64,000 nt of DNA from Actinomycetota bacterium (GTDB taxonomy: Bacteria; Actinomycetota; Actinomycetes; Mycobacteriales; Pseudonocardiaceae), in the NCBI GenBank assembly GCA_021324675.1, contig JAJPIR010000278.1, positions 62,001 through 126,000 of the forward strand, read 5' to 3'. The notes below the pieces were generated by a model. The model searched no databases. It saw nothing but the letters and a program-made list of their open reading frames with translations, and had not been told where the DNA came from. Position 1 is the stretch's first letter, and each line of letters starts with the position of its first letter. Positions 7,588 to 64,000 of the stretch are shown here, piece after piece. A program made the position numbers and the translations under genes.

Positions 7588-8822
7588 ATGTCGGTGGCGC
7601 CGGTGTGGCAAAGCAGTGATGAACAGCTGCTTGCCGATCTGGGTGCGCTGGAAACCCCATTGCATGCCACGTGGGCGCAGATGTTGGCAGTCGTTGGAGA
7701 AATCGATTCCCGTGGTATTGCCACGGCTAAGGGGTACGGGTCCACGGCCGAGCTGGTGCGAGCCGTCGCGCGCGTGCCGCGGAGTGAGGCGCGGGCGCGA
7801 GTCGACGCCGCGGCTGATGTCCTACCGACCCGTGGACTGGATGGCGCGTCGTTGGAATCGCGACTTCCCGAGACCGCGGTTGCAGTGGCGAGCATGCCAT
7901 CGGCGCGGCGGATGTGGCGGTGATTCGCTCCGTCATGATGCGCATCCCGACGCATATCGACACCCAACAGCGCGTGCAGGTTGAGGCCGAGTTGGCCCGG
8001 CAGGCCCGCATTCTGGATGCGAGCCAGCTGGCAGTGTTGGGCAGACGGATGCTGGCCTACCTCGATCAAGACGGCCGGCCGCCGAAGGACCAGCCGGAGG
8101 CCCGCCGCCATCTGCGTTGGCATGACCGTGACGGCGGCTATGAGCTGAGCGGATGGCTCGACCGGGAAGCCGCCGAAATCCTGCGGTCGGCGCTGAGCCC
8201 GCTGGCCGCGCCGCGACCCACCACCGACGTCGAAGTCGACCTGCGCACCGCAGCCCAGCGCGACGCCGACGCTCTTGTCGACCTGGCCCAGCGCGCCTTG
8301 GACAGCGGGGAACTTCCCACCGAAGGTGGCCAGTGCCCCGCATGTTGTCGTCACAGTCAGCTTGCCCGTGCTCCAGGGCCGCATCGGCTCCGCATTGATG
8401 GCGCTCGGTGGCCCGATCAACGCCGAGACCGCACGCCGCATCGCCTGCGACGCCGAAATCATCCCGGTGGTGCTGGGCTCCGTGGTGAACCGCTCGACGT
8501 CGGGCGTGCCAGCCGCATCGTGCCGGCAGCGATTCGCCGTTCGGTGATCCTGCGCGACGGCGGCTGCGCCTTTCCTGGCTGTGCTGTCCCGGCCCGCTGG
8601 TGCGACATTCATCACGTTGTTCATTGGGCCCAGGGAGGAGCTACCCGCCTCACCAACTGTGTGGCACTCTGCGGCCGTCACCACCGACTGCTGCACCATT
8701 CCGACTGGCGCATCGACATGACCGGCGGCATTCCGCAATTCCACCCACCACCCTGGCTGGGTGGATCCCCGCGCCGCAATCCAGTCCATGCCGTACCGGC
8801 GCTCATCCGAATCCGCGAGTAA
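7588..8822 (+). pseudogene. 13E12-type DUF222/HNH endonuclease relic, frameshifted
   Basis: Together the fragments give a full-length DUF222 protein with a C-terminal HNH nuclease domain, a multicopy actinobacterial family. The first frame (SDEQLLADLGALETP onward) ends at a TGA at 7921. The expected continuation EHAIGAADVAVI is in the frame starting near 7893. A second shift lies near 8330-8337, where APHVVVTVSLPVLQG moves to another frame, and a third near 8485 returns to GEPLDVGRASRIV. The HNH signature (CAFPGC, CDIHHVVHWAQGG, NCVALCGRHH) is intact. Three shifts argue for a decayed copy rather than programmed frameshifting. Confidence 0.88.
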
Positions 8823-8848
8823 CCGAAGCGCGCGAGTAACCGAAGCGC
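8815..8848 (+). repeat. 17-bp tandem duplication over a stop codon
   Basis: GCGAGTAACCGAAGCGC occurs at 8815-8831 and again at 8832-8848. The first copy contains the TAA that ends the 13E12 relic. Confidence 0.9.
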
Positions 8849-8874
8849 GGGCATCCCCAGCGATATGCCGTTCG

Positions 8875-9258
8875 CTACTGGCAGTCGGCCGGGCGACGTT
8901 CGCACCATGGGATGGCGCCGGGGAATCGGTAGCGGTTGTTGGCCACCCACTGGTACAGCCACTCCTGCGCGTGCTGAGTCAGCCGGTACACCACCAGCGG
9001 GGCGCGGGTGCCCAGGGCCGCGGCCAATGCGGCATTGATCGCTTCGGCCGCTGCGGCTCGGGACGAGTCGGCGCCCTGCCAGCGCACTGCCGCCAGGCAT
9101 TCCTCGACTGTCGCTCCTACCCGGGCCGGGGCGCCTGGTTGCTGCAGCGGCAGCAGCTCGACCCGCCGGTGCCGATCCAGGCTGCGCAGCCATCCAATGC
9201 TGCGGGTGCAGAATCCGCAGCGCCCGTCGAATACCAGCACCCCGGTGCTCACCGTCAC
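8875..9258 (-). CDS. DCC-family (DUF393) thiol-disulfide oxidoreductase-like protein
   Basis: This 127-residue protein starts with a strand and DGRCGFCTRSIGWL, the DxxCxxC motif of the DCC thioredoxin-like family, with both cysteines present. The C-terminal part (WLYQWVANNRYRFPG) also fits the family. The role is probably redox, possibly membrane-associated, but partners are unknown. It stands alone, reading towards the 13E12 relic. Confidence 0.85.
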   Translation of the reverse strand: MTVSTGVLVFDGRCGFCTRSIGWLRSLDRHRRVELLPLQQPGAPARVGATVEECLAAVRWQGADSSRAAAAEAINAALAAALGTRAPLVVYRLTQHAQEWLYQWVANNRYRFPGAIPWCERRPADCQ

Positions 9259-9543
9259 CTCCGGTGGATCAGTGCACAGACAGCGGCAAGATCCACTCTA
9301 CGCTGTGGCGACAAGGCCGAGGCTCGTGCACGGTGCTCTGCCGTACTCCTGGTTACGGTGCGGCGAACAAATGACACCGGCAGCGCCGGGCGAACTTAGA
9401 CGTCTCAAACCACGATGCCACCCAGCGACATTGATCAGCCTGCGCGCGTGGGCATACGGGCCTCCTGCTCAGCGGGGCCGGTTATGCTGTTTTCACCTGC
9501 TCTGTGGTTCATCCGTCGCAGCAACTTCACCCGGTATCCCAGA
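9259..9543. other. intergenic stretch, no gene supported
   Basis: This region lies between the divergent DCC-family gene and the broken ligase gene. It shows no convincing coding frame and should contain the two promoters. The only clear structure is the palindrome at its right end, listed separately. Confidence 0.4.
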
Positions 9544-9573
9544 TACATCAGGTGATGTAGGGCAGCTACATCA
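9544..9573 (+). promoter_or_regulatory. palindromic operator with extra half-site
   Basis: TACATCAGGTGATGTA at 9544-9559 is a perfect dyad (7-bp arms, 2-bp centre), and a third TACATCA occurs at 9567-9573. It ends 17 bases before the ATG at 9591, overlapping the expected promoter and leader. This layout suits a repressor site, perhaps for a GntR- or TetR-type regulator. No such regulator gene is adjacent. Confidence 0.55.
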
Positions 9574-9590
9574 ATCGAGGTAGGAGCGAG

Positions 9591-10098
9591 ATGGCCCGTG
9601 AGGATGACGATCAGCGTCCGAAGTCGCGGATAGGGTTTTTGGGCAGAGCTGCTCCGCAGCCAGCGGAGCGGTTGCCGGTGTCAAATCTCCGCAGACCGCG
9701 CTTACCAAACCAGGCAATTCGGCCTGGGCCATTTAGTGTCATTTTATCCCGATGGCTAATTCATGAGTTACCGCAAGCTGAGCGATCAGGCCCTCGCGGT
9801 CGCTGCCGCAGTGGGAAAGGTCAACGTGCATCCCGATGACCGGGTACTCGTTATGCTGCCCGACGGTCCCGATTTCATCGAGGCATTCGCCGGAGTGATG
9901 CAGCAGGTTGCGCTGCCGCTGCCGGCGAATCCGTTGCTCCCGGCGCACGACATCGTGGCTGTCGCTGCCGAGGCAGGCGCCCGGGTCGTGCTGGTCTCGG
10001 CGGATCGGATTCCCGCGCTAGCCGACCTTGACGCGGAGCCGCCGGTACTGATCGATGGGCCTTGCGGGTCCTGGGCGGCCGTGCTTCGACTTCGGTGA
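9591..10098 (+). pseudogene. N-terminal remnant of an acyl-adenylating (ANL) enzyme
   Basis: An ATG at 9591 with a good AGGAG site opens a frame (IGFLGRAAPQPAERLPVSN) that loses homology near 9690-9705. In another frame the text continues QFGLGHLVSFYPDG, then a TAA at 9757-9759, then FMSYRKLSDQALAVAAAV and DDRVLVMLPDGPDFIEAF, typical of the N-terminal subdomain of AMP-forming ligases. It stops at 10098 after about 165 residues. The ATP-binding motifs and C-terminal domain are absent. This is a dead fragment: one frameshift, one nonsense codon and loss of the 3' two thirds. Confidence 0.75.
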
Positions 10099-10164
10099 GC
10101 AGCGGCGTGGCCGCGTCACCGTCAAGCCACCCTGCCAGGCCTCTTGACCGGGATACCTCTCCGT

Positions 10165-10180
10165 ACGTGCAATAGCACGT
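10165..10180 (+). other. small perfect hairpin
   Basis: ACGTGC, AATA, GCACGT form a 6-bp stem with a 4-base loop, 45 bases before the small gene at 10225. It may be an operator or a leader hairpin; no U-tract follows. Confidence 0.3.
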
Positions 10181-10224
10181 GCAAACGGTATGTACCGGAC
10201 AAGTGGAACATGGGGGGACGTCTC

Positions 10225-10422
10225 ATGCCGTGGTACCTGCGTTCGCTGTCCGACCGGGACACCCACTACGGCGATCTGCAGCCCGACGGGCAGGTGATTG
10301 CCGTCTGTGGCGCGGTCTTCAAACCCCGACCCTTGCCTTATGACCGTCTCGCGCTAGCCGCGTCGCCACCGGATCCTGACCAGATCTGCCCACGGTGCCA
10401 GAGCGGCAAGCCCACGAGCTAG
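10225..10422 (+). CDS. small putative zinc-binding hypothetical protein
   Basis: The 65-residue product (MPWYLRSLSDRDTHYGD at the start) contains a single cysteine in AVCGAVFKP and a C-terminal CPRC pair after PPDPDQI. This spacing resembles short actinobacterial proteins with a degenerate zinc site. GGGGGG with short spacing precedes the ATG at 10225; a longer reading from 10144 is possible but unsupported. The function is unknown. Confidence 0.6.
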   Translation: MPWYLRSLSDRDTHYGDLQPDGQVIAVCGAVFKPRPLPYDRLALAASPPDPDQICPRCQSGKPTS

Positions 10423-10609
10423 GTCCGGCTGCCTCCGGTGCGCGGACCGAGAGCAGCCGGACCGGCCTCTGGCTGTCGCGCAGCCTCCCTCGCGTCCCGG
10501 CGGATAAGCCCAGCAATCAATCGCGATAGAGTGCCGCGCCGGAATCGGGAGTGACTGCCTGTGTCCAGGTCGTCACTTAACGACAGCGCCGGCGGGGTGA
10601 GCAGCGGAT

Positions 10610-12436
10610 ATGCGCAGAAATCCAGTCCATACAGGTCGGACGCGCAGGCAGTTTCTCCGCGACACGGCACTGGCGGGTTTGGCGACCGTGTCCGGGTTGG
10701 TGGGTGCACCGGCATCGGCTGGGGCAGCACCGTCCGGACCGCGGGTGGCCGTACTGGGTGGCGGGGTAGCTGGGTTGTCTGCGGCGCTCGAACTGGCCGA
10801 GCGGAACTTCCGGGTTACGGTCTACGAGCGCAAGGAGCTCGGCGGGAAAGCGCGGAGCATCCCGGTGCCACAGAGTGCGACTGGCGGGCGTGGGCCGCTG
10901 CCTGGCGAGCATGGATTCCGGTTCTTTCCTGGTTTTTATTGGAACCTTGGTGACACCATGCGTCGGATCCCATTCACCGGTAATCAACAGGGCACCTGGA
11001 GTAACTTGGTGCACGTAAGGGCATACCGGATCTCACGTTCGGGTGGTCCTGATTTCACGGTTCCCTTGCCGTTCCCGTTCTCGCGTGATTCGGTGCCATA
11101 CACGCCAGAAAGTTTGGTCGAGACCATCGCGGCGGGGATCGTCGAAGCTTTCCGGCTGCCTGCTCAGGAGGCTGTTTACTTCGCCCGCCGGGTCCTTGTG
11201 TACGTGACGAGCTGTGACGAGCGTCGATTCGGCCAGTGGGAGCATGTCACCTGGAACGACTTCCTTCGCGCCGACAAAATGTCGCAAGACTACCGCCGGC
11301 TGTTTGCAGACGGTGCCACCCGGAACTTGGTCGCCACCAAGTCGCGCGAGGCAAGCACGCATACCATCGGGTTGATCAGCGAAGCCATCATATGGAGTTT
11401 CCTGGGTCGAGGCAACGAGCCTGGCGGCAGCGTGGACCGAGTGCTCGATGGGCCAACCAATGAGCGATTAATCGAGCCATGGGTGGCCCATCTGCGTGCG
11501 CTCGGTGTTGAATTCCGCGTAGGCGATAAAGTCGAGAGATTTCACCTGACGGATAATAGGATATCCGCGGTGACGGTACGTGAGCCTTCCGGACAAACCC
11601 GGACCGTTACCGCGGATTGGTTCCTGTCGGCGATACCGGTCGACCGTTTCGTGCCGCTGCTCAGCCCGGAAGTACTTGCCGCCGACCCTGACCTGGGAAG
11701 GGCATGCCAACTCCGTACCGACTGGATGAACGGATTGATGTTCTATCTGCGGCGCAAGCTACCGCTAACAGGGCATGTCAATTATGTCGATTCACCGTGG
11801 TCGCTTATCTCGAGCAACGAAGCCCAGTTCTGGCGGCGTAGCTTCCGCGACTACGGCGATGGCACCGTTCTGGACTGCTTGTCCACCGTAATCTCCGACT
11901 GGGTTACTGTCGGGAGCGTCATCAACAAACCTGCCAAAGAATGCACTCCCGACGAGATAGCTCAAGAGGTGTGGGCGCAGATCAAGGCTCATCTCAACGA
12001 TACCGGTGACGATACGCTGACCGACGATCTTCTTCATTCCTGGTTTCTCGACCCCGCCATCACCGGATCCGGCACTCCGAACGTGGCCAACAGCGAGCCA
12101 CTGTTTATCCAGAACGTCGGCTCCTGGGCCAACAGGCCCGAATCCGCCACAGCGATCCGGAATCTGTTCCTTGCCGGCGACTGGGTCCGTACCAACGTCA
12201 ACGTCACGTCTATGGAAGGAGCGAACGAGAGTGCTCGCCAGGCCGTCAATGCCCTGCTGGACGCGGCCGGCTCGGTCGCTCCCCGCTGCAGCCTGCACGG
12301 GCTATTTCGTCCGCCCGAGTTTGAACACCTCAAGTCGGTTGATCGCGCCCGCTACCGTCGGCAACTGCCAAACCTCTTTGATAACGACGATCCATTACGC
12401 GGCCAAATCCTCGCTGAACCGACGAAGAGCAACTAG
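10610..12436 (+). CDS. Tat-exported FAD-dependent desaturase/amine-oxidase-like enzyme
   Basis: This 608-residue flavoenzyme starts with a Tat signal (RTRRQFLRDTALAG, then a hydrophobic stretch ending near ASAGAA). The dinucleotide-binding motif VAVLGGGVAGLSAALELAER is followed by an ELGGKA segment typical of phytoene-desaturase and hydroxysqualene-dehydroxylase relatives. The C-terminal FAD motif is FLAGDWVRTNVNVTSMEGA. Such enzymes act on terpenoid or carotenoid chains, but the substrate here is not determined. The Tat signal would place it outside the membrane, which is unusual for this group. Its stop overlaps the stop of the opposing P450 at the palindrome CTAG. Confidence 0.85.
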   Translation: MRRNPVHTGRTRRQFLRDTALAGLATVSGLVGAPASAGAAPSGPRVAVLGGGVAGLSAALELAERNFRVTVYERKELGGKARSIPVPQSATGGRGPLPGEHGFRFFPGFYWNLGDTMRRIPFTGNQQGTWSNLVHVRAYRISRSGGPDFTVPLPFPFSRDSVPYTPESLVETIAAGIVEAFRLPAQEAVYFARRVLVYVTSCDERRFGQWEHVTWNDFLRADKMSQDYRRLFADGATRNLVATKSREASTHTIGLISEAIIWSFLGRGNEPGGSVDRVLDGPTNERLIEPWVAHLRALGVEFRVGDKVERFHLTDNRISAVTVREPSGQTRTVTADWFLSAIPVDRFVPLLSPEVLAADPDLGRACQLRTDWMNGLMFYLRRKLPLTGHVNYVDSPWSLISSNEAQFWRRSFRDYGDGTVLDCLSTVISDWVTVGSVINKPAKECTPDEIAQEVWAQIKAHLNDTGDDTLTDDLLHSWFLDPAITGSGTPNVANSEPLFIQNVGSWANRPESATAIRNLFLAGDWVRTNVNVTSMEGANESARQAVNALLDAAGSVAPRCSLHGLFRPPEFEHLKSVDRARYRRQLPNLFDNDDPLRGQILAEPTKSN

Positions 12437-51059: not shown

Positions 51060-52991
51060 ATGTCCGTGAACCAGTGGCACCGGGTCGACCCAGCCGACAT
51101 CCCTGACGAGGGTCGGGTGCGCACCGTTGTCGTCGACGGCCACGCCGTTGCGTTGACTCGCTGCGCTGGACAGCTAGGCGCCCTGGACAACCGGTGCCCG
51201 CACCAGGGCGGCCCGCTCGGTGAGGGATCGATCGAGAAAGGATGGCTGCGCTGCCCGTGGCATGGCTATGACTACCACCCGACGACGGGCCGGCCACCGG
51301 AAGGCTTCTCCGACGGGGTAGCGACGTACCCGGTGGACCAGCGCACCGATGGCGTCTATATCCAGCTGCCGGAACTGACCTCGCCACCGCGCACGGTGGC
51401 TGATGCCATGGTCGAGACGCTCGTGGCCTGGGGTGTGCGGACTGTGTTCGGGATGGTCGGCCATTCGAACCTGGGATTCGCCGACGCGCTGCGGCGGGCC
51501 GAACAACGCGGTGACATCACCTTTGTCGGTATCCGTCACGAGGGCGCGGCGGCATTCGCGGCCAGCGCCTACGGCAAGCTGACCGGCCGACCCGCTGCGT
51601 GCTTTGCCATCGCCGGGCCTGGATCGACAAACCTGCTCACCGGGCTGTACGACGCCAAGCTCGATGGTGCGCCGGTAGTGGCGATCTCCGGCCAGGTGCC
51701 GTCGAAGGTGCTCGGCCGGGGCGCCTTCCAGGACTTGAAACTGTCCACCGTGTTCGGCGACGTCGCAGTGTCCAGCACCACCGTCACCGCTGGCAGCGAT
51801 CATGCTGAGCTCGCCGCGCTGGCCGTCAAACACGCCATAGACGGTCGCGGCGTCGCCCATCTCGTGCTACCCGACGAGGTACAAGCCCAGCCAAGCACCG
51901 CGCCCCCGCGCCTGCCAGACGGGCGCGCCGCATGCCACCGGATCCTGCCGGCACCCAGCGAGTTGACCGCCGCCGCCACCCTGGTCCGTGATGCCCGACG
52001 CCCGGTGCTGATCGCGGGCCACGGCGCACGGCAGGCAGCCGAGGACGTGCGGAAGCTCGCCGAGCGGCTCAACGCCCCGGTACTGACCACCTTCAAAGCC
52101 AAAGGACTCATCCCCGACACCCACCCCCTGGGGGCCGGCGTGCTCGGCCGCAGCGGCACCCCGGTAGCCAGCTGGCTGATGAACGAATCCGACCTTCTGA
52201 TCGTGGTCGGCGCGTCGTTCGCCAACCACACCGGGATCGCGCCGTACAAACCAATCCTGCAGATCGACGACGATGTCTCCGCAGTCGGCCGCTTCGACCC
52301 GGTGACCCTGGCCCTGCTCGGTGACGCCCGCCTGACCGTATCCGCACTGGCTGAGATGCTGGGCGAGGTCAAGGCCGAGGACCAGCGACCCGACGTCGCG
52401 ACCCGCTGGAGGATCTGGCGCGCGGAAAAGGCCCGCCGGGTACGCGACGACCGGGGCCACGGCGTCGGTGCGGCGGCGGTGTTCGATGCGCTGTCACGGC
52501 ACCTACCGACAGATGCGGTGCTGACGGTGGACGTCGGCAACCACGCCTACTCCCTGGGCCGTTACCTGGAGTCGCAAGGCCAGCCGGTACTGATGTCGGG
52601 GTATCTGGGCTCGATCGGTTTCGGGTATCCCGCCGCTCTCGGCGCCTGGGCGGCCGCACCGGGCCGGCCGATCGTCGCGGTGACCGGGGACGGCGGTTTC
52701 GGGCAGTACGCCATGGAGCTGACCACGGCAGTGAAGTACCGCATGGGCATCAAGCACGTGCTGCTCAACAACAACGCGCTGGGCAAGATCAGCAAGGAAC
52801 AGCTGGCCGAGGAGTACCCCGTCTGGCAGACCGACTTGCGCAATCCCGACTGGGCCCGCTACGCCGAGCTGTGCGGCGCGACCGGGATCCGAGTCGACGC
52901 CAGCGACCAGCTCGACGACGCGATGAGCGCGCTTTTCGCCGCAGACGGACCGGTCCTGCTGTGCGTCGAGCAGGACGTCGCGCTGCTCTAG
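51060..52991 (+). CDS. Rieske ferredoxin fused to a ThDP-dependent enzyme
   Basis: The 643-residue product begins with a Rieske domain of about 100 residues (CPHQGGPLGEG and CPWHGYDYH supply two Cys and two His). A complete ThDP enzyme of the acetolactate synthase/pyruvate oxidase family follows: GIRHEGAAAFAASAYG with the catalytic Glu, IAGPGSTNLLTGLYDA, and the cofactor motif GDGGFGQYAMELTTAV ending in LNNNALGK. Fusion of the two is unusual; the cluster could draw electrons from the oxidised ThDP intermediate. Cupin and flavodoxin-like genes flank it on the same strand. The substrate is not known. Confidence 0.88.
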   Translation: MSVNQWHRVDPADIPDEGRVRTVVVDGHAVALTRCAGQLGALDNRCPHQGGPLGEGSIEKGWLRCPWHGYDYHPTTGRPPEGFSDGVATYPVDQRTDGVYIQLPELTSPPRTVADAMVETLVAWGVRTVFGMVGHSNLGFADALRRAEQRGDITFVGIRHEGAAAFAASAYGKLTGRPAACFAIAGPGSTNLLTGLYDAKLDGAPVVAISGQVPSKVLGRGAFQDLKLSTVFGDVAVSSTTVTAGSDHAELAALAVKHAIDGRGVAHLVLPDEVQAQPSTAPPRLPDGRAACHRILPAPSELTAAATLVRDARRPVLIAGHGARQAAEDVRKLAERLNAPVLTTFKAKGLIPDTHPLGAGVLGRSGTPVASWLMNESDLLIVVGASFANHTGIAPYKPILQIDDDVSAVGRFDPVTLALLGDARLTVSALAEMLGEVKAEDQRPDVATRWRIWRAEKARRVRDDRGHGVGAAAVFDALSRHLPTDAVLTVDVGNHAYSLGRYLESQGQPVLMSGYLGSIGFGYPAALGAWAAAPGRPIVAVTGDGGFGQYAMELTTAVKYRMGIKHVLLNNNALGKISKEQLAEEYPVWQTDLRNPDWARYAELCGATGIRVDASDQLDDAMSALFAADGPVLLCVEQDVALL

Positions 52992-53036: not shown

Positions 53037-53753
53037 ATGTCCAGCATGGAAAAACGCTATGACGACCTGCGCGCCATGTTCATCAACTGCACCCTCAAAC
53101 GCTCCCCCGAAATCAGCAACACCCAGGGCCTGATCGACCTCAGCCGCACCATCATGGAGAAGAACGGCGTGCAGGTGGACGTGATCCGTGCGGTTGATCA
53201 CGACATCGCCACCGGCGTGTGGCCGGATATGACCCGACACGGGTGGGCCAGCGACGAGTGGCCAGCGCTGTACCCGCGAGTGCTGGGCAGCGACATCCTG
53301 GTCATCGCCGGCCCCATCTGGCTGGGCGACAACAGCTCGGTCACCAAGCGGGTGATCGAGCGGCTCTACGGCTGCTCGCACCTGCTCAACGAAGCCGGCC
53401 AGTACGCCTACTACGGGCGGGTAGGGGGCTGCCTGATCACCGGCAACGAGGACGGCGTGAAGCACTGCGCGATGAACGTGCTGTACAGCTTGCAACACCT
53501 GGGCTACACCATCCCGCCGCAAGCCGACGCAGGCTGGATCGGCGAAGCCGGCCCCGGCCCGTCCTACCTGGATCCTGGTTCCGGGGGCCCGGAGAATGAC
53601 TTCACCAATCGCAACACCACGTTCATGACCTGGAACCTGATGCATCTGGCCCGGATGCTGCGCGACGCAGGAGGAATCCCCCCGCACGGCAACCAGCGTT
53701 CAGAATGGGACGCCGGCTGCCGCTTCGATTTCGCCAATCCCGAACACCGCTGA
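53037..53753 (+). CDS. flavodoxin-like NAD(P)H-dependent oxidoreductase
   Basis: This 238-residue protein has the FMN-binding layout of the NADPH-dependent FMN reductase/flavodoxin family: FINCTLKRSPEISNTQGL, the loop AGPIWLGDNSSVTKRVIERLYG split over the helix, and GCLITGNEDG. It starts 45 bases after the Rieske-ThDP gene and may pass electrons to or from it. AAGGAG lies before the ATG at 53037. Confidence 0.87.
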   Translation: MSSMEKRYDDLRAMFINCTLKRSPEISNTQGLIDLSRTIMEKNGVQVDVIRAVDHDIATGVWPDMTRHGWASDEWPALYPRVLGSDILVIAGPIWLGDNSSVTKRVIERLYGCSHLLNEAGQYAYYGRVGGCLITGNEDGVKHCAMNVLYSLQHLGYTIPPQADAGWIGEAGPGPSYLDPGSGGPENDFTNRNTTFMTWNLMHLARMLRDAGGIPPHGNQRSEWDAGCRFDFANPEHR

Positions 53754-56472: not shown

Positions 56473-56873
56473 GTCGACCTCGGCTCGACCTCCAGACGGT
56501 TAGGGCGCTCGACACGTGCTCACCTACCGGGTGGGTCGAACGCCAAACGTCTAATTCCCGCTACTCACCGGCTTTAATCCGGCCAGCAGCACACCCGATG
56601 GGACACCCTAATCGGGTGACGCGCGACGGCGCCGACGACGCTGCATGCACTGCCCCTCGGCTCAGTGGCCGATGACGCCGATCTCGCCGAGTCGGAGGAG
56701 CAAACACACACCCCACAGGAAGTGCCGAGTTATATCAGAGGCGGCATGGTGCAACGTGAAGCATCGGTGGGATATCTCCCTGCGACAACACCGATCTCGC
56801 ACCGGGTTCGGGAGTTGCGGTTTCCGGCTTCAGCTGGCGCGGTAATCGGGGAATCGAAGGATCGGTGAGGCTC
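56473..56873. other. divergent intergenic region
   Basis: These 401 bp separate the sigma gene and the HAD-GH65 gene, which diverge. Both promoters should lie here. Short frames are present but none is convincing. I see no strong palindrome. Confidence 0.4.
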
Positions 56874-59800
56874 ATGGCATACCTAGGTGCGATCTTCGAC
56901 GTAGACGGAGTGCTGGTGGACTCGCCGCACGAGCTTGCCTGGCGCGAGGCCCTGAAGGATCTGATGGAGGGTGACTGGCGCGCCATCCGAAAGCAGACCA
57001 GCTGGACCGCCGAGCGCTTCACCCCGGCGGTGTACCAGCAGGTGATGGCGGGAAAGCCGCGCATGGCCGGCGCCCGGGCCGCGCTGGAGTACTTCGGGGT
57101 GCCCGATGTGGACCGCCGGGCCGAGCAGTACGCAGCAACCAAGCAGCAGCACATCGTCGAGCTCATCGAGCAGGGCCGGTTCATGGCCTTTCCCGACGCG
57201 CTGCGCTTCATCCTGGCGGTCAAGGATAGCGGCATCCGGGTCGCGGCGGCGTCGTCATCGAAGAACGCCAAACTGTTCCTGGAGCGGATCCGGCTCGACA
57301 CCTTCGCCGCCGGGCAGCGCCTGAACTACGACTTCGTCCATGAGGGGATGACCCTGGAGGAGTTGTTCGACGCCGACATCTCCGGCCGTGACTTCCCGCG
57401 CGGCAAACCCGACCCGGCGATCTTCCTGACCGCTGCCGAGGAACTCGGCCTGTCACCAGGCGATTGCTTCGTGGTAGAGGACGCCACGAGCGGGATCCAG
57501 GCCGCCAGAGCCGGGGGCATGACCGCGATCGGGGTGGCGCGCCTAAGCGACCAGGAGCTGCTGGCCCGAGCCGGCGCCGACCTGGTGGTGACCACCCTCG
57601 ACGACGTCTGCGTGCCAGCGCTCGCCGAGGGCCGGTTGCAGGAACGGCGGGCCGCCGGGGAGATCCGGCGCCGGCATGCGGAACGACCACCGAGCGTCTG
57701 GACGCTGGTCTACGACAGTTTCGACCCTGCGCGCCAGGGACTGCGCGAGGCGCTGTGCGCGCTGGGCAACGGGTATTTCGTCACTCGTGGTGCCCTGCCC
57801 GAGGTCGACGCTGACCGGATCCACTACCCGGGCACCTACGTCGCCGGCCTCTACAACCGGCTGGTCAGCGACATCGCCGGGCGGCAGGTTGAAAACGAGG
57901 ATCTGGTCAACGTGCCCAACTGGCTCCCGCTGCGGTTCCGCATTACCGGTGGGCCCTGGTTCGACGTCGGGCAGGCCGACGTCGAGGAGCACCGCTTCGA
58001 GCTGGACATGCGGCACGGAACGCTCACCCGGCAGTTGACCTGGACAGACGCCGGGGGTCGGCGGACCAGCCTCGTCCAGCGCCGGTTCGTCAGCCGCAAG
58101 GATGAACACCTGGCCGGCCTGGCCACGGAGTTCACCGCCGAAAACTGGTCGGGCACCGTTGAGGTCCGCTCGGGCCTGGACGGCAGGGTGATCAACGCGG
58201 GCGTCAAGCGGTACCGCGACCTCAACGGCCACCACCTGGTGACGTTGGGCCAGGCCGAGGTCGACAACGAAACGGTCGACCTGCAGGTCGAGACGACTCA
58301 GTCACACGTGCGTATCGCTCTTGCGGCCCGTACCAGGTTGCTGCGCGACGGCGAGGTGGCCGAGGTCGATCGCAGGCTGGTTGACGAGCCCGGCTTCGTA
58401 GCCCACCAGCTCACCTTCCCGCTGGAGCAAGGGCAGCCGGCGACCGTCGAGAAGGTCGTTGCCCTCTACACCTCCCGCGACCGCGCGATCGCGGAAAGCC
58501 GGCAGGACGCACGCCTGGCGATCGCGCGTGCCGACGACTTCGCCGGGCTGCTGGCCCGCCATGAGAGCGCCTGGCGCACCGCCTGGAACCGGTTCGACAT
58601 CGAGATGGACAGCGCCAACGAGTGGACCGAGACGGTCCTGCACCTGCACATATTCCATCTAATGCAGACCGTCTCGCTGCACACGGCTCACTTGGATGTC
58701 GGGGTGCCGGCCCGGGGTTGGCACGGGGAGGCATACCGGGGGCATGTCTTCTGGGACGAGCTGTTCATCTTCCCGTTTTTCAACTTCCAGCGGCCAACAC
58801 TGGCCGCCACGTTGCTCGAGTACCGGCACGCTCGGATCGGGATGGCGCGAGCGGCGGCGCGGGCGGCGGGGTTCGCGGGTGCGATGTTCCCCTGGCAGAG
58901 CGGCTCCAACGGGCGGGAGGAGACTCAGCAGCTACACCTCAACCCGAAGTCCGGGCGCTGGCTGCCCGACCGCTCGCACCTGCAACGCCACGTCAACATC
59001 GCGATCGCGTACAACGTCTGGCAGCACTATCTGGTCACCGGGAGTATCGGGTTCCTGCGTTTTTCCGGCGCCGAGCTGCTGATCGAGATCGCCCGGTTCT
59101 GGTCCAGCATCACCACATACAGCCCCGACCAGGACCGATACGAGATCCACGGTGTGATGGGTCCCGACGAGTACCACGAGGGCTACCCCGACTCCGATGA
59201 GGAGGGTCTGCGCAACAACACCTACACCAACGTGATGGTGGTCTGGGTGCTGCAGCGGGCGTTGCAGGCTCTGGACGAGCTGCCGCCGCACTACCGCCAG
59301 GAGCTGGTCGAGGAGCTGACGATCCGCGATGAGGAGCTGACCCGGTGGCGCGACATCACCCGCAAGATGAAAGTCGTCTTCCACGCCGACGGTCTGCTGA
59401 CCCAGTTCGAGGGCTACGAGCAGCTGCCCGAGTTCGACTGGGAGGGCTACCGGGCGAAGTACGGCAACATCCAGCGGCTGGATCGCGTGCTCGAGGCCGA
59501 AGGCGACAGCACCGATCGCTACAAGGTGTCCAAGCAGGCCGACGTGCTGATGTTGCTGTTCCTGCTGTCGCGGCACGAACTACGCCAGTTGCTGGCCGAC
59601 CTCGGCTACGAGGTAACTGACAAGCAGCTGGCCCGGACCGTCGACTACTACCTGGAGCGGACCTCGCACGGCTCGACCCTCAGTGCGGTGGTCAGCGCGT
59701 GGGTACTGGCGCGGTACCACCCGAACGAGGCGTGGCGATTCCTGCTGCAGGCATTGGACAGCGACGTCGCCGACGTTCAGGGCGGAACCACTGCCGAGGG

Positions 59801-60095
59801 CATTCACCTGGGGGCGATGGCCGGTACGGTCGATCTTGTGCTCCGCTGCCTGACCGGGCTGCGAGCCCGCGGGCAGGTGCTGCGGTTCGACCCGGCCCTG
59901 CCGGCGCAGGTCAAGCAACTGCGCTTCAGCGTCCATTACCGGGGCCACCGCGTGGAGGCAGCGTTCGCCGAGGACCGCCTGGAGGTCAGCTCGCGCCCCG
60001 GCCCGGCAGCACCCATCACCATTTTGGTCCGCGACCAGACCGTCGAGCTGAACCCAGGCGCCCGGCACGTATTCTCGCTGGCACACCGGCCCTGA
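56874..60095 (+). CDS. HAD phosphomutase-GH65 disaccharide phosphorylase fusion
   Basis: The 1073-residue protein joins a beta-phosphoglucomutase-like HAD domain (AIFDVDGVLVDS, ATSGIQAARAGGMTAIG) to a complete GH65 domain (FWDELFIFPFF, the catalytic Glu in GVMGPDEYHEGYPD, and STLSAVVSAW). GH65 phosphorylases split trehalose, maltose or kojibiose into glucose and beta-glucose 1-phosphate, which the HAD domain can convert to glucose 6-phosphate. In mycobacteria the two activities are, as far as I recall, adjacent separate genes. The start at 56874 gives the intact HAD motif. Confidence 0.9.
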   Translation: MAYLGAIFDVDGVLVDSPHELAWREALKDLMEGDWRAIRKQTSWTAERFTPAVYQQVMAGKPRMAGARAALEYFGVPDVDRRAEQYAATKQQHIVELIEQGRFMAFPDALRFILAVKDSGIRVAAASSSKNAKLFLERIRLDTFAAGQRLNYDFVHEGMTLEELFDADISGRDFPRGKPDPAIFLTAAEELGLSPGDCFVVEDATSGIQAARAGGMTAIGVARLSDQELLARAGADLVVTTLDDVCVPALAEGRLQERRAAGEIRRRHAERPPSVWTLVYDSFDPARQGLREALCALGNGYFVTRGALPEVDADRIHYPGTYVAGLYNRLVSDIAGRQVENEDLVNVPNWLPLRFRITGGPWFDVGQADVEEHRFELDMRHGTLTRQLTWTDAGGRRTSLVQRRFVSRKDEHLAGLATEFTAENWSGTVEVRSGLDGRVINAGVKRYRDLNGHHLVTLGQAEVDNETVDLQVETTQSHVRIALAARTRLLRDGEVAEVDRRLVDEPGFVAHQLTFPLEQGQPATVEKVVALYTSRDRAIAESRQDARLAIARADDFAGLLARHESAWRTAWNRFDIEMDSANEWTETVLHLHIFHLMQTVSLHTAHLDVGVPARGWHGEAYRGHVFWDELFIFPFFNFQRPTLAATLLEYRHARIGMARAAARAAGFAGAMFPWQSGSNGREETQQLHLNPKSGRWLPDRSHLQRHVNIAIAYNVWQHYLVTGSIGFLRFSGAELLIEIARFWSSITTYSPDQDRYEIHGVMGPDEYHEGYPDSDEEGLRNNTYTNVMVVWVLQRALQALDELPPHYRQELVEELTIRDEELTRWRDITRKMKVVFHADGLLTQFEGYEQLPEFDWEGYRAKYGNIQRLDRVLEAEGDSTDRYKVSKQADVLMLLFLLSRHELRQLLADLGYEVTDKQLARTVDYYLERTSHGSTLSAVVSAWVLARYHPNEAWRFLLQALDSDVADVQGGTTAEGIHLGAMAGTVDLVLRCLTGLRARGQVLRFDPALPAQVKQLRFSVHYRGHRVEAAFAEDRLEVSSRPGPAAPITILVRDQTVELNPGARHVFSLAHRP

Positions 60096-60236: not shown

Positions 60237-60560
60237 TCACGGCCCCAGAGCGCCTTTGTAGAGCGTGACATCCCGGCGATCGAGCAGCGGACGGATGCGG
60301 TCTCGTGCGATCGACAGATAGTGCGGCGACGCGCAGTGCTGATCGAACGCGGTCCGGTCGCGGTACCGTTCGCACAAGACGAACTCGCGCGGGTCCTCGT
60401 AGGCTTGGTGCGCGGAGAAGGCAGCACAGCCCGGTTCCTCGCGGACCAACCCGCTGTACTCGGCGAGAAGCGCAGCGACGGTCTCTTCGGCGCCTTCCTG
60501 CGCACGGTAGTGCGCTACCACAACAACGGCCTGATCGACAACTTCATGGTCATTTGTCAC
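60237..60560 (-). CDS. antibiotic biosynthesis monooxygenase (ABM)-domain protein
   Basis: This 107-residue protein has the ABM pattern VVVVAHYRAQEGAEETVAALL, EEPGCAAFSAHQ, FVLCERYRDRTAFDQHCASPHY (split). Such proteins oxidise quinols or aromatic substrates without a cofactor. It lies 126 bases after the L22-like gene on the same strand, so it may extend the monooxygenase operon. Confidence 0.87.
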   Translation of the reverse strand: MTNDHEVVDQAVVVVAHYRAQEGAEETVAALLAEYSGLVREEPGCAAFSAHQAYEDPREFVLCERYRDRTAFDQHCASPHYLSIARDRIRPLLDRRDVTLYKGALGP

Positions 60561-60686: not shown

Positions 60687-61100
60687 TCATCGCGCGTGCG
60701 CCTGGTGGCCCCGCACCACGCGCAGCTTGATCCTGATGTCGGTAGTTTCGGTCGTGATCCAGCCGGCTGTTCCGTGCGCCTGCCGGCGTACCCGGACGAT
60801 GGTCTCGCCGTCGCCGACTTCGCCGGTAGCGATCACCAGCGCGTCTGGGCCGACGCCGAAGGCATGCTCAGCCTGCACGACGGCCTGCGCAACAATCCGG
60901 GCCACCGGGGCGCAGACGGTCCCGGGGGCGAACCGCAACGCCCACAGCGCCTGGGTGGCGGTCATACCCTGCACGCGGGCCAGGACGCGGCGGGCCTCGG
61001 CCTTGCTGAGCCGGGCTTGGCTGTTGTGCCCGATCACCGTCGTCTCGGGCGACCTGGTGGCCTCATCGGGCACATCACCGTCGGTGCGCAGTGTCCTCAC
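60687..61100 (-). CDS. divergent ribosomal protein uL22-like protein in a monooxygenase operon
   Basis: The 137-residue product aligns by eye with bacterial L22 over about 100 residues: KAEARRVLARVQGMTA, ALRFAPGTVCAPVARIV, AQAVVQAEHAFGVGPDALVIAT, and RVRRQAHGTAGWITTETTDI. The strongly basic tail and the TSHITVVV strand of true L22 are changed (TTDIRIKLRVV), and no other ribosomal genes are near. The GTG start overlaps the reductase stop as GTGA, so it is translated with the monooxygenase genes. It may be a repurposed RNA-binding or assembly protein; the role is unknown. Confidence 0.75.
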   Translation of the reverse strand: MRTLRTDGDVPDEATRSPETTVIGHNSQARLSKAEARRVLARVQGMTATQALWALRFAPGTVCAPVARIVAQAVVQAEHAFGVGPDALVIATGEVGDGETIVRVRRQAHGTAGWITTETTDIRIKLRVVRGHQAHAR

Positions 61101-62332
61101 CTCATGACCGCTCGGGCCAGGCGTCGCAGGTCGACGGACTCGTCGCGCAGGGTCGCGGCGCTGACCCGCACCCCGGATGCGATCAGCTTGCGAGCCGCGA
61201 TGATGTCGCGGCCGCGGTTGAGCGCGACCACGGCACGGACGCGGCCGTCGGCGAGGAGGAACCGGGCGAACGATCGCTCGGCGATCGATCCGCGCACCAC
61301 CACCTCGTCGCACCCCTCGCCGAATCCCATCGACTGCAGGCTGTGCTCGTACTGATCGGACCAGAACCAGTGCGGATCGTCGTAGGCGACGTCCTCGCCG
61401 AGCATGTTCCTGGCCGCCACCGCGCCATGCTTGATCGCGTTGTCGTGGTGCTCGACGCGCAGGTGACGCCTGTACAGCGGGTGAAAGTGCGCCGCGACAT
61501 CGCCTGCGGCGTAGATGCCGGCAACGGCTGTGCGGCAATGCTCATCGACGACGATGCCGTTGTGGCACTTCACCGAGGTACCGGCGACGATTTCGGTGTT
61601 CGGCAGCATCCCGACCGCAACCAGGAGCAACCCGCACTCCAGCCGGCTGCGACCGGTGGTCACCACCAGCCCGTCCGCCGTCTCGGACACCGATTGCACC
61701 TGCTCTCCGGTACGGAAGTCGACGCCGGCATCCCGGTGGATCTCGGCCAGCTGGCTGCCGACCTGCGCACCCAGTGCCCGCTCGAGCGGGACCTGTGCCA
61801 TCTCGAGCACGGTCACCTCGGCACCGAGCCGGCGCGCCGAGGCAGCGACCTCGCACCCGATGAACCCGCCGCCGAGCACCACCAGCGGCTCGCCCTGCCG
61901 CAAGCGTTCGGCCAGCCAGTCGGCGTCAGCCCGGGTGCGCAGGTAGGCCACCCGCTCGCCACCTACCGATCCCTGGAGGCTCTCGAACGGTCGCGGCCGT
62001 CCCCCGGTGGCCAGCAGCAGCGCGTCGTAACCCAGCCGCTCGCCTCCCGCCAGCTGGACCACCCGCTCGCGGTCGTCGATCCCCTCAGCGCGCTCACCGA
62101 GCCGCAGCTCGACCTCCTGCTCGGCGTACCAGCTCGCGGGCCGCACCGGTAGCTGAGCGCCGTCGAGGTGGCCGGTCAGGTACTCCTTGGACAGTGGTGG
62201 CCGCTCATACGGCACCGCAGGCTCGCTCGCGACGACGACCAGCCGGCCGTCGAAGCCGGCTGATCGCAGGGTCGCCGCGGCGGAGGCGGCGCACGGACCT
62301 CCACCGACGATGACGAACACCGGTGGGGTCAC
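61097..62332 (-). CDS. ferredoxin reductase (rubredoxin/putidaredoxin reductase type)
   Basis: This 411-residue flavoprotein has an FAD motif VIVGGGPCAASAA, VPYERPPLSKEYL, an NADH motif VVLGGGFIGCEVAASA and a C-terminal IYAAGDVA. It should pass electrons from NAD(P)H to the Rieske ferredoxin encoded just upstream. Related toluene and isoprene monooxygenases use a different reductase type with a built-in plant-like ferredoxin domain. GTG 62332 overlaps the ferredoxin stop by GTGA. Confidence 0.9.
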   Translation of the reverse strand: MTPPVFVIVGGGPCAASAAATLRSAGFDGRLVVVASEPAVPYERPPLSKEYLTGHLDGAQLPVRPASWYAEQEVELRLGERAEGIDDRERVVQLAGGERLGYDALLLATGGRPRPFESLQGSVGGERVAYLRTRADADWLAERLRQGEPLVVLGGGFIGCEVAASARRLGAEVTVLEMAQVPLERALGAQVGSQLAEIHRDAGVDFRTGEQVQSVSETADGLVVTTGRSRLECGLLLVAVGMLPNTEIVAGTSVKCHNGIVVDEHCRTAVAGIYAAGDVAAHFHPLYRRHLRVEHHDNAIKHGAVAARNMLGEDVAYDDPHWFWSDQYEHSLQSMGFGEGCDEVVVRGSIAERSFARFLLADGRVRAVVALNRGRDIIAARKLIASGVRVSAATLRDESVDLRRLARAVMR

Positions 62333-62655
62333 GGCACCGCCACGCAGATCATCCCGTCCTCGTCCACCTTCACGGGGAAGGAACGCAACGCGCAATCGTC
62401 CGGGTTGACGCCCTTGCCAGTGAGGGCATCGAACACCCAGTGATGGTTCGCGCAGGTCAGTTCCCGGCCGTCGAGATCACCTTGATCCAGCGGCCATGCC
62501 TGGTGTGGGCAGCGATTCTCGTAGGCGCGGATCTGGCCGTCGACGTTGACCAGCAAGATCTTCGCCGTACCGACCTGCACCCCGGTCAAGTCGCCCTCCC
62601 ACAGCTCGTCGAGCTCCATGACCGGGGTCCACACCCATTGCCGGGCTTCGGCCAT
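62329..62655 (-). CDS. Rieske ferredoxin of a diiron monooxygenase
   Basis: This 108-residue protein has CPHQAWPLDQGDLDGRELTC, split, and CANHHWVFD, giving the two Cys and two His of a [2Fe-2S] Rieske centre. The layout is like TmoC of toluene monooxygenase. It starts two bases after the beta-subunit stop. Confidence 0.92.
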   Translation of the reverse strand: MAEARQWVWTPVMELDELWEGDLTGVQVGTAKILLVNVDGQIRAYENRCPHQAWPLDQGDLDGRELTCANHHWVFDALTGKGVNPDDCALRSFPVKVDEDGMICVAVP

Positions 62656-62657
62656 GA

Positions 62658-63713
62658 TCAGCTCGCTGCGGCGGCATCGGCCGAGGCGAGGCCGGGTGAG
62701 GCTTCGGCGAGCAACCGTTCGCGGGCGGCCGCAGCCGCTGCGGCTACCTCCGAGGCCGCCAGGTCCCGCAGGGAATAGTTCTCCAGCACCGAGCCCAGCC
62801 CCGCAGCCGACTCGTCGGCCAGCGGCGACCACTTGTCGATCCACTTCCGCAGCACGCCGGCGTTTCCCGGTCGTTGCGCGACCACGAAGCGCGCGAGTTC
62901 CCCGCTCCACCTCTCCCGCCGTTGCGCGTCGCGTCGCAGGAACGAGGTCAGCAGCCAGGTGAGGTCATCGCCACTGTCCCTGGCGACCTCCCCGAGCTGG
63001 CGGAGCAGCACGTCGTCCAGCGACGGCAGCAGCACGAGGTTCATCGCGGTGAACGCTTCGCCCCAGTCGTAAGCGGTCAGTGCCAGCTCGATGGCACGCC
63101 TGGTCGGTTGCCAGGCCTCGTCCAACTCCCAGATGGCTCGCTCGCCGGCGGCGAAGCCGTCGTCCGGCCAGGCCAGCTGCAGTTCCCGGGTGCGGTAGGA
63201 CACCAGCGTCACCCGGCGCAGCATGTCGGCGGCGGACAACGCTGCGGGGTTGGTGATGTAGGGCGACGGTGCCATCAAGCCGATGTAGGCCTGCACCTGC
63301 TGGGCACCGTGCAGTGGGTACCGCGTCGTGGTGAACAGCCGGGCCAACGTCGCCCGCCACTCGGGCGCCAGCTGGGCGTCGGCGTTCGCGGCGGCGTACT
63401 GCTCGAGTACCCCGCCGACCTGCGTCTCCTGCTCGTGCTGCTGGGTCACGTAGGCCCGGTAGCTGAGCATGTCCGGGTCACGGAAGCTTTCCCAGTCGTC
63501 GACCTGCAGCGGGGAGTCATCCCGGTAGGTCCGCATCCACAGGTTGGCCGGCGACGACGGGTTCTGCTCGAACGGGGCTTTCCGGCCCTCGCGCAGGGTG
63601 TAGTTCATGCCCTGCGTGCCGATCTCGTAATCGGACGGGCGGCGCTTGATGTCGCCGAAGGCACTCCACGTGCGCAAGCGGCGCTTGGCTGGCTGATCGG
63701 TTGTCGCTGACAT
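62658..63713 (-). CDS. diiron monooxygenase hydroxylase beta subunit (TmoE-like)
   Basis: The 351-residue protein resembles beta subunits of soluble diiron monooxygenases: RLRTWSAFGDIKRRPSDYEIG, LNYTLREG-like MNYTLREGRKAPFE, SPLQVDDWESFRDPDMLSYRAYV, and later LDEAWQPTRRAIELALTAYDWGEAFTAMNLVL. Beta subunits have the ferritin-like fold but no diiron ligands, as here. The ATG at 63713 has GGGAG six bases upstream. The alpha and gamma subunits are probably beyond the right edge. Confidence 0.88.
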   Translation of the reverse strand: MSATTDQPAKRRLRTWSAFGDIKRRPSDYEIGTQGMNYTLREGRKAPFEQNPSSPANLWMRTYRDDSPLQVDDWESFRDPDMLSYRAYVTQQHEQETQVGGVLEQYAAANADAQLAPEWRATLARLFTTTRYPLHGAQQVQAYIGLMAPSPYITNPAALSAADMLRRVTLVSYRTRELQLAWPDDGFAAGERAIWELDEAWQPTRRAIELALTAYDWGEAFTAMNLVLLPSLDDVLLRQLGEVARDSGDDLTWLLTSFLRRDAQRRERWSGELARFVVAQRPGNAGVLRKWIDKWSPLADESAAGLGSVLENYSLRDLAASEVAAAAAAARERLLAEASPGLASADAAAAS

Positions 63714-63724
63714 GTCGTTCTCCC

Positions 63725-64000
63725 TCAACCAACCGGTGCCTTGGCCGGGCCGAGTGACCACTCGACGGCGTCCGATGTCGTGTTGATCCGCCCCGCGAAG
63801 GCGGACATCATCGCCTCCAGCGAGCGGATCTCGAAGTCCGGCCCCAGGTGGCGTTTGAGCGATTCCGCGGTCACCCGCAGGTGGCCGGACGCGTGAATCC
63901 GCACGTAGGCACCACGGTCCGTTACTTCAATCTCGGTGCCTGGGTTGTCGTCGTAGATGGCGGCGACGACCTGATCGACCTCATCGCTTGACCGCAGGAT
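63725..64000 (-). CDS. monooxygenase coupling/effector protein (partial)
   Basis: Ninety-one residues of the C-terminal part are present, ending at 63725; the N-terminus lies beyond 64000. The text (EIEVTDRGAYVRIHASGHLRVTAESLKRHLG, split, and DFEIRSLEAMMSAFAGRI) matches MmoB/TmoD coupling proteins, which bind the hydroxylase and tune oxygen activation. The gap to the beta-subunit start is 11 bases. Confidence 0.88.
   Translation of the reverse strand: MLRSSDEVDQVVAAIYDDNPGTEIEVTDRGAYVRIHASGHLRVTAESLKRHLGPDFEIRSLEAMMSAFAGRINTTSDAVEWSLGPAKAPVG

Follow-up and report, generated by a model that had tools for sequence, protein, structure and literature searches.

A uL22-like protein linked to one clade of TMO-like diiron monooxygenases and its predicted partnership with a DUF59 protein

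A paralogue of the ribosomal protein uL22 was found to be encoded in a diiron monooxygenase operon in the window (the whole stretch of DNA analysed, 64000 nucleotides), and this uL22-like protein is strictly linked to one monooxygenase clade. As most of its relatives, found in some soil actinobacteria, carry a fused iron-sulfur assembly domain, it probably helps in the metal loading of the monooxygenase. The reading preferred here, to which we assign a probability a little under 0.6 on the basis of sequence comparison and analogy, is that the paralogue acts off the ribosome as a fixed accessory of one TMO-like diiron clade and, with a SufT-type DUF59 protein, would form a dedicated maturation factor.

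The uL22-like gene and its ribosomal relatives

The uL22-like gene lies on the reverse strand at positions 60687–61100, and its GTG start at 61100 overlaps the TGA of the FAD reductase gene by 4 bases, in agreement with the GTGA overlap reported in the preliminary description. The frame of the 137-residue product given there was also confirmed, though the start is less certain. Residues 1–21 carry one synonymous and five non-synonymous changes relative to a sibling genome, hence no synonymous excess, and do not align to the fused homologues described below; as codon 22 is also a GTG, the true start may be at that codon. A 283-codon reading of the same frame (60687–61538) was rejected, as it would overlap the reductase gene by more than 400 bases and the conserved domain begins only at about residue 22–28 of the short form.

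Residues 27–126 of the predicted protein match Pfam family PF00237 (Ribosomal_L22) with an E-value of 4.7e-17 and 62.5 bits against a cut-off of 28, covering positions 4–103 of the 104 in the profile. The score against the NCBIfam rplV equivalog (TIGR01044) was 62 bits, under the cut-off of 73.65. A search of the PDB with the family profile retrieved ribosomal uL22 chains, mycobacterial ones first (71 bits), with other actinobacterial uL22s among the best matches. An AlphaFold2 model built from a two-row alignment (window and sibling; mean pLDDT 63.5, pTM 0.60, termini unreliable) reproduced the uL22 order of elements, and the top Foldseek and VIA-align matches to it were uL22, the best with a Z score of 9.4 among the matches listed. 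The L22 resemblance first noticed by eye is thus confirmed, with the protein assigned to the uL22 family by its domain match and predicted fold.

Between the window and sibling genes, which are 89% identical, there are 17 non-synonymous and 18 synonymous changes, a synonymous excess that was significant for the whole frame (Fisher p = 0.002) and for residues 22–137 (p = 0.0003). The dN/dS ratio was 0.33, compared with 0.26 for the FAD reductase gene, 0.20 for the tmoE-type gene and 0.18 for rplV. By these substitution counts, the frame is a real gene under purifying selection.

The canonical rplV of the window genome is intact on another contig (C131), where it scores 141 bits and adjoins rpsS and rplB. 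The uL22-like gene is therefore a paralogue; it is neither in the S10 operon nor the sole uL22 copy of the genome. No ribosomal gene adjoins it, as had been stated from the start, its neighbours encoding the FAD reductase, a Rieske protein, a TmoE-type hydroxylase subunit, an MmoB/TmoD protein and an ABM-domain protein.

When 16 distinct L22-like domains and 23 ribosomal uL22s were placed in one tree, they fell on the two sides of a single branch with support of 100/100. The L22-like family has the same domain, fold and hairpin length (without gaps) as ribosomal uL22, but its mean net charge is +2.8 compared with +10.0. The preliminary description had placed the loss of basic residues at the C-terminus; charge has indeed been lost, but across the whole domain and the hairpin. 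Of the 13 positions with a basic residue in 90% or more of the ribosomal uL22s, the L22-like family has kept three (R30, R68 and R103) and lost five (35, 102, 114, where R is replaced by W, 117 and 118), the other five being mixed; R106 has been gained. Residues C63, R106, H109 and W114 are invariant in the L22-like family without being so in ribosomal uL22, and L40 and R68 are further residues of this kind, with V104 nearly invariant (comparison of 15 of the 16 homologues, one divergent duplicate being left out). That so many conserved basic residues are missing speaks against a role in the ribosome, and from this pattern of conservation it is likely that rRNA binding has been lost.

The monooxygenase operon and its distribution

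All of the operon genes in the window are on the reverse strand. Upstream of the uL22-like gene are those for the FAD-dependent ferredoxin reductase (61097–62395 as the longest frame, conserved from about 62329), a TmoC-type Rieske [2Fe-2S] ferredoxin (62329–62664), the TmoE-type hydroxylase beta subunit with a Phenol_Hydrox domain (62658–63761, longest frame) and an MmoB/TmoD effector protein (63725–64000, truncated where the window stops). The contig itself ends inside the operon, 53 bases past the window. Downstream, at 60237–60560, is a gene for a small ABM-domain (antibiotic biosynthesis monooxygenase-like) protein, which also follows the uL22-like gene in most relatives. The two other Phenol_Hydrox loci in the window genome were considered, and neither is the alpha subunit that the truncated operon lacks.

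The whole operon was found in the sibling genome (locus L029), in the order AraC, DJ-1/PfpI, two SnoaL-like proteins, TmoA, TmoB, MmoB/TmoD, TmoE, Rieske, FAD reductase, uL22-like and ABM, the genes for AraC, DJ-1, both SnoaL proteins, TmoA and TmoB being visible only there. The sibling thus has the complete TMO/ToMO-type set of alpha, beta, TmoB, effector, Rieske and reductase, and the nearest solved structures to its alpha subunit are ToMO TouA (578 bits) and T4MO TmoA (545 bits). The toluene/o-xylene and toluene 4-monooxygenase systems share these components; here the order is A-B-D-E-C-reductase, followed by uL22-like(-DUF59) and ABM. An identical gene order was found on a plasmid of Rhodococcus koreensis R85.

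Other features of the window were recorded on the forward strand. A frame at 51060–52991 encodes a Rieske [2Fe-2S] domain N-terminal to a complete three-domain TPP enzyme of the acetolactate-synthase type, a fusion that looks unusual, and is followed at 53037–53753 by a gene resembling NADPH-dependent FMN reductases. A long frame at 56865–60095 appears by eye to combine an N-terminal part like HAD phosphatases with a following part resembling glycosyl hydrolase family 65; its counterpart in the sibling is 92.8% identical and is also near the monooxygenase operon, with other genes between.

In every locus read, the uL22-like gene comes after the FAD reductase gene of the same operon, which bears out the conserved linkage to monooxygenase genes that the preliminary description had asked about. 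Among 99 genomes of two genera (80 and 19), the gene was present in all 10 that have this monooxygenase clade, with alpha subunits 73–80% identical to that of the sibling, and absent from the remaining 89; in seven of these 89 the sole TMO-type alpha subunit is one of 46% identity. In a sample of 399 genomes of the order, it was found in 2 of 2 genomes with an alpha subunit of the clade versus 0 of 5, the window genome, whose alpha subunit gene lies off the contig, being counted apart. Neither the L22-like nor the DUF59 gene was present in seven sister TMO-type operons that were read (three from another family of the order and four from the two genera). The linkage spans two genera plus Rhodococcus, and together with the profile and fold matches and the separate rplV it upholds the original proposal that a uL22 paralogue shares an operon with a diiron monooxygenase.

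A family profile separated L22-like proteins (at least 104 bits) cleanly from ribosomal uL22 (at most 79 bits). As scoring in the large samples was limited to the top candidates of each genome, presence is firmer than absence there; class- and phylum-wide samples yielded no further member among the best 10 candidates per genome, which makes absence outside the order weak evidence. A sequence-pattern scan of genome contigs retrieved the sibling only, reflecting the limit of that method. Phage records gave no match to the L22-like family, and plasmid records gave one true homologue, that of R. koreensis. A match on a Nonomuraea plasmid was rejected, its score being within the ribosomal range, and one on a Tsukamurella plasmid was rejected as an S10-type ribosomal cluster with ordinary rplV. 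The T. tyrosinosolvens NCTC13231 records named 'plasmid 22' and 'plasmid 5' (L027 and L082) carry such an S10-type cluster together with a SUF operon, which suggests that they may be pieces of chromosome mislabelled as plasmids.

Fusion and separation of the candidate DUF59 partner

In R. koreensis, the uL22-like position of the operon is occupied by WP_206017194.1, which is annotated as an iron-sulfur cluster assembly protein and consists of an N-terminal uL22 domain (59 bits) and a C-terminal FeS_assembly_P/DUF59 domain (60.7 bits). This uL22-DUF59 fusion was found in most homologues, being present in nearly all of the other relatives, and two adjacent genes replace it in one genome (G784) and in one operon tail of another (G826). 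The protein in the window has no DUF59 domain, and the uL22-like gene stands alone in the window's genus. There, the sibling carries a DUF59 gene ~10 kb from the uL22-like gene in a divergent operon with the order acyl-CoA ligase, DUF59, CoA-transferase, and the same arrangement was found in the window genome, outside the window at the end of contig C20, which also holds genes for an aldehyde dehydrogenase, an acyl-CoA dehydrogenase, an APH-type kinase and an SDR. The neighbouring ligase, CoA-transferase and dehydrogenases suggest that the monooxygenase substrate may be routed through CoA thioesters. As the DUF59 protein is unfused and encoded in another operon in this genus, its predicted partnership with the uL22-like protein there is drawn from relatives.

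Two loci have rearranged operon tails. In one (L037; G357:C1:3355000–3373000), a second, decayed tail at ~7650–11060 has the TmoE and reductase genes in pieces, a DUF59 part that is apparently frameshifted and a uL22-like part that is still open. In the other (L057; G826:C23), there are tandem tails at 8200–12000, where the split uL22-like and DUF59 pair precedes what is left of a reductase gene and a divergent fused copy with an eroded RVRRxAHG motif.

The monooxygenase-linked DUF59 domains retain the motif cysteine (TLTSxACP). Among other proteins the SufT of SUF operons is closest to them, sharing DUF59 homology and the conserved T-x-x-x-C-P region, but they are apart from the SUF-operon SufT branch with support of 100/100. 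The monooxygenase-linked copies were not strongly supported as one clade in the DUF59 tree, and a single clade was not rejected (AU p 0.61).

Candidate roles and their alternatives

In the proposed mechanism, a former ribosomal uL22 would have been recruited as an accessory of one TMO-like soluble diiron monooxygenase clade, and the uL22-like and DUF59 domains, fused in most relatives and encoded by neighbouring genes in the window's genus, would form one dedicated maturation unit for the diiron and/or [2Fe-2S] centres. The DUF59 half may use its conserved cysteine to pass on iron or an Fe-S unit obtained from the SUF system, and the uL22-like half may be an adaptor for recognition of either the hydroxylase or the pair formed by the Rieske protein and the reductase. 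A hyperactive DUF59 cysteine is known to mediate the binding of SufT to SufS, SufU and client proteins (PMC9045647). The PaaABCE diiron monooxygenase cannot do without the DUF59 protein PaaD in vivo but does not need it in vitro (PMC4498308), as a maturation factor would be expected to behave. PaaD of the phenylacetyl-CoA epoxygenase is likewise tied to a single diiron monooxygenase operon, but it has no uL22 domain, the DUF59 domain here is nearer in sequence to SUF-operon SufT, and the hydroxylase here is of the TMO/ToMO type. Counting against the maturation reading, other TMO-type enzymes manage without such a protein, and we know of no metal- or client-binding function for the uL22-like part.

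The preliminary description had offered an assembly factor, an RNA-binding regulator of the operon and a ribosome variant as possible roles; the repeated SufT/DUF59 fusion favours the assembly factor, and the loss of basic residues disfavours the ribosome variant. The strict position after the reductase and the strict co-occurrence with the hydroxylase clade would also fit a structural or activity-controlling subunit of the assembled monooxygenase, for example one bridging the reductase and the Rieske protein or capping the hydroxylase, with DUF59 attached for another reason. This seems unlikely, as a SufT-type domain that retains its cysteine is repeatedly fused to the uL22-like domain or encoded next to it, which points to maturation, and the standard TMO components are all present already. 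Its uL22 ancestry, a hairpin still at ribosomal length without gaps, the three arginines kept and the one gained would suit a uL22-like domain that binds the 50S subunit, perhaps close to where the tunnel opens or replacing uL22, and holds DUF59 beside the nascent monooxygenase for co-translational metal loading. That is rather improbable given that 10 of the 13 conserved basic positions are lost or mixed (five each), that the mean charge has fallen so far and that the canonical rplV is present. If such a module had kept the ability to recognise the translating ribosome or the nascent chain and brought the DUF59 carrier to one diiron enzyme, this would amount to client-specific, co-translational metallation, for which the odds are similarly long.

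Ribosomal proteins commonly regulate their own mRNAs, and this gene is within the operon that it might control, so that an RNA-binding regulator with a DUF59 domain sensing Fe-S supply can be envisaged; the loss of basic residues and the AraC-type regulator already at the operon flank make it more doubtful still. A non-functional relic or a recent stray duplicate of rplV might be suspected from the faster evolution than rplV (0.33 versus 0.18) and from the decayed second copy in one relative (L037), but is contradicted by the purifying selection, the private invariant residues and the strict linkage across two genera plus Rhodococcus, leaving it scarcely credible.

A literature search, mostly without subscription papers, found no link of L22 to such a monooxygenase or to DUF59 in one protein, and no ribosomal-protein fusion is mentioned in the main text of a survey that covered 761 SufT homologues and nine architectures (PMC4982691). 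The sequences of the L22-like family are already public. Dedicated DUF59-type maturation factors of diiron monooxygenases are known; a uL22 building block is unexpected, and the recruitment of a universal ribosomal protein into a metabolic operon seems, in this case, not to have been described before. PF00237 matches outside ribosomal operons should therefore be checked before they are named L22. To our knowledge, there is little understanding of the way in which soluble diiron monooxygenases obtain their iron in the cell, and their heterologous expression can fail. A clade-tied factor that joins a formerly ribosomal protein to an Fe-S assembly domain would provide a direct handle on iron acquisition by these monooxygenases.
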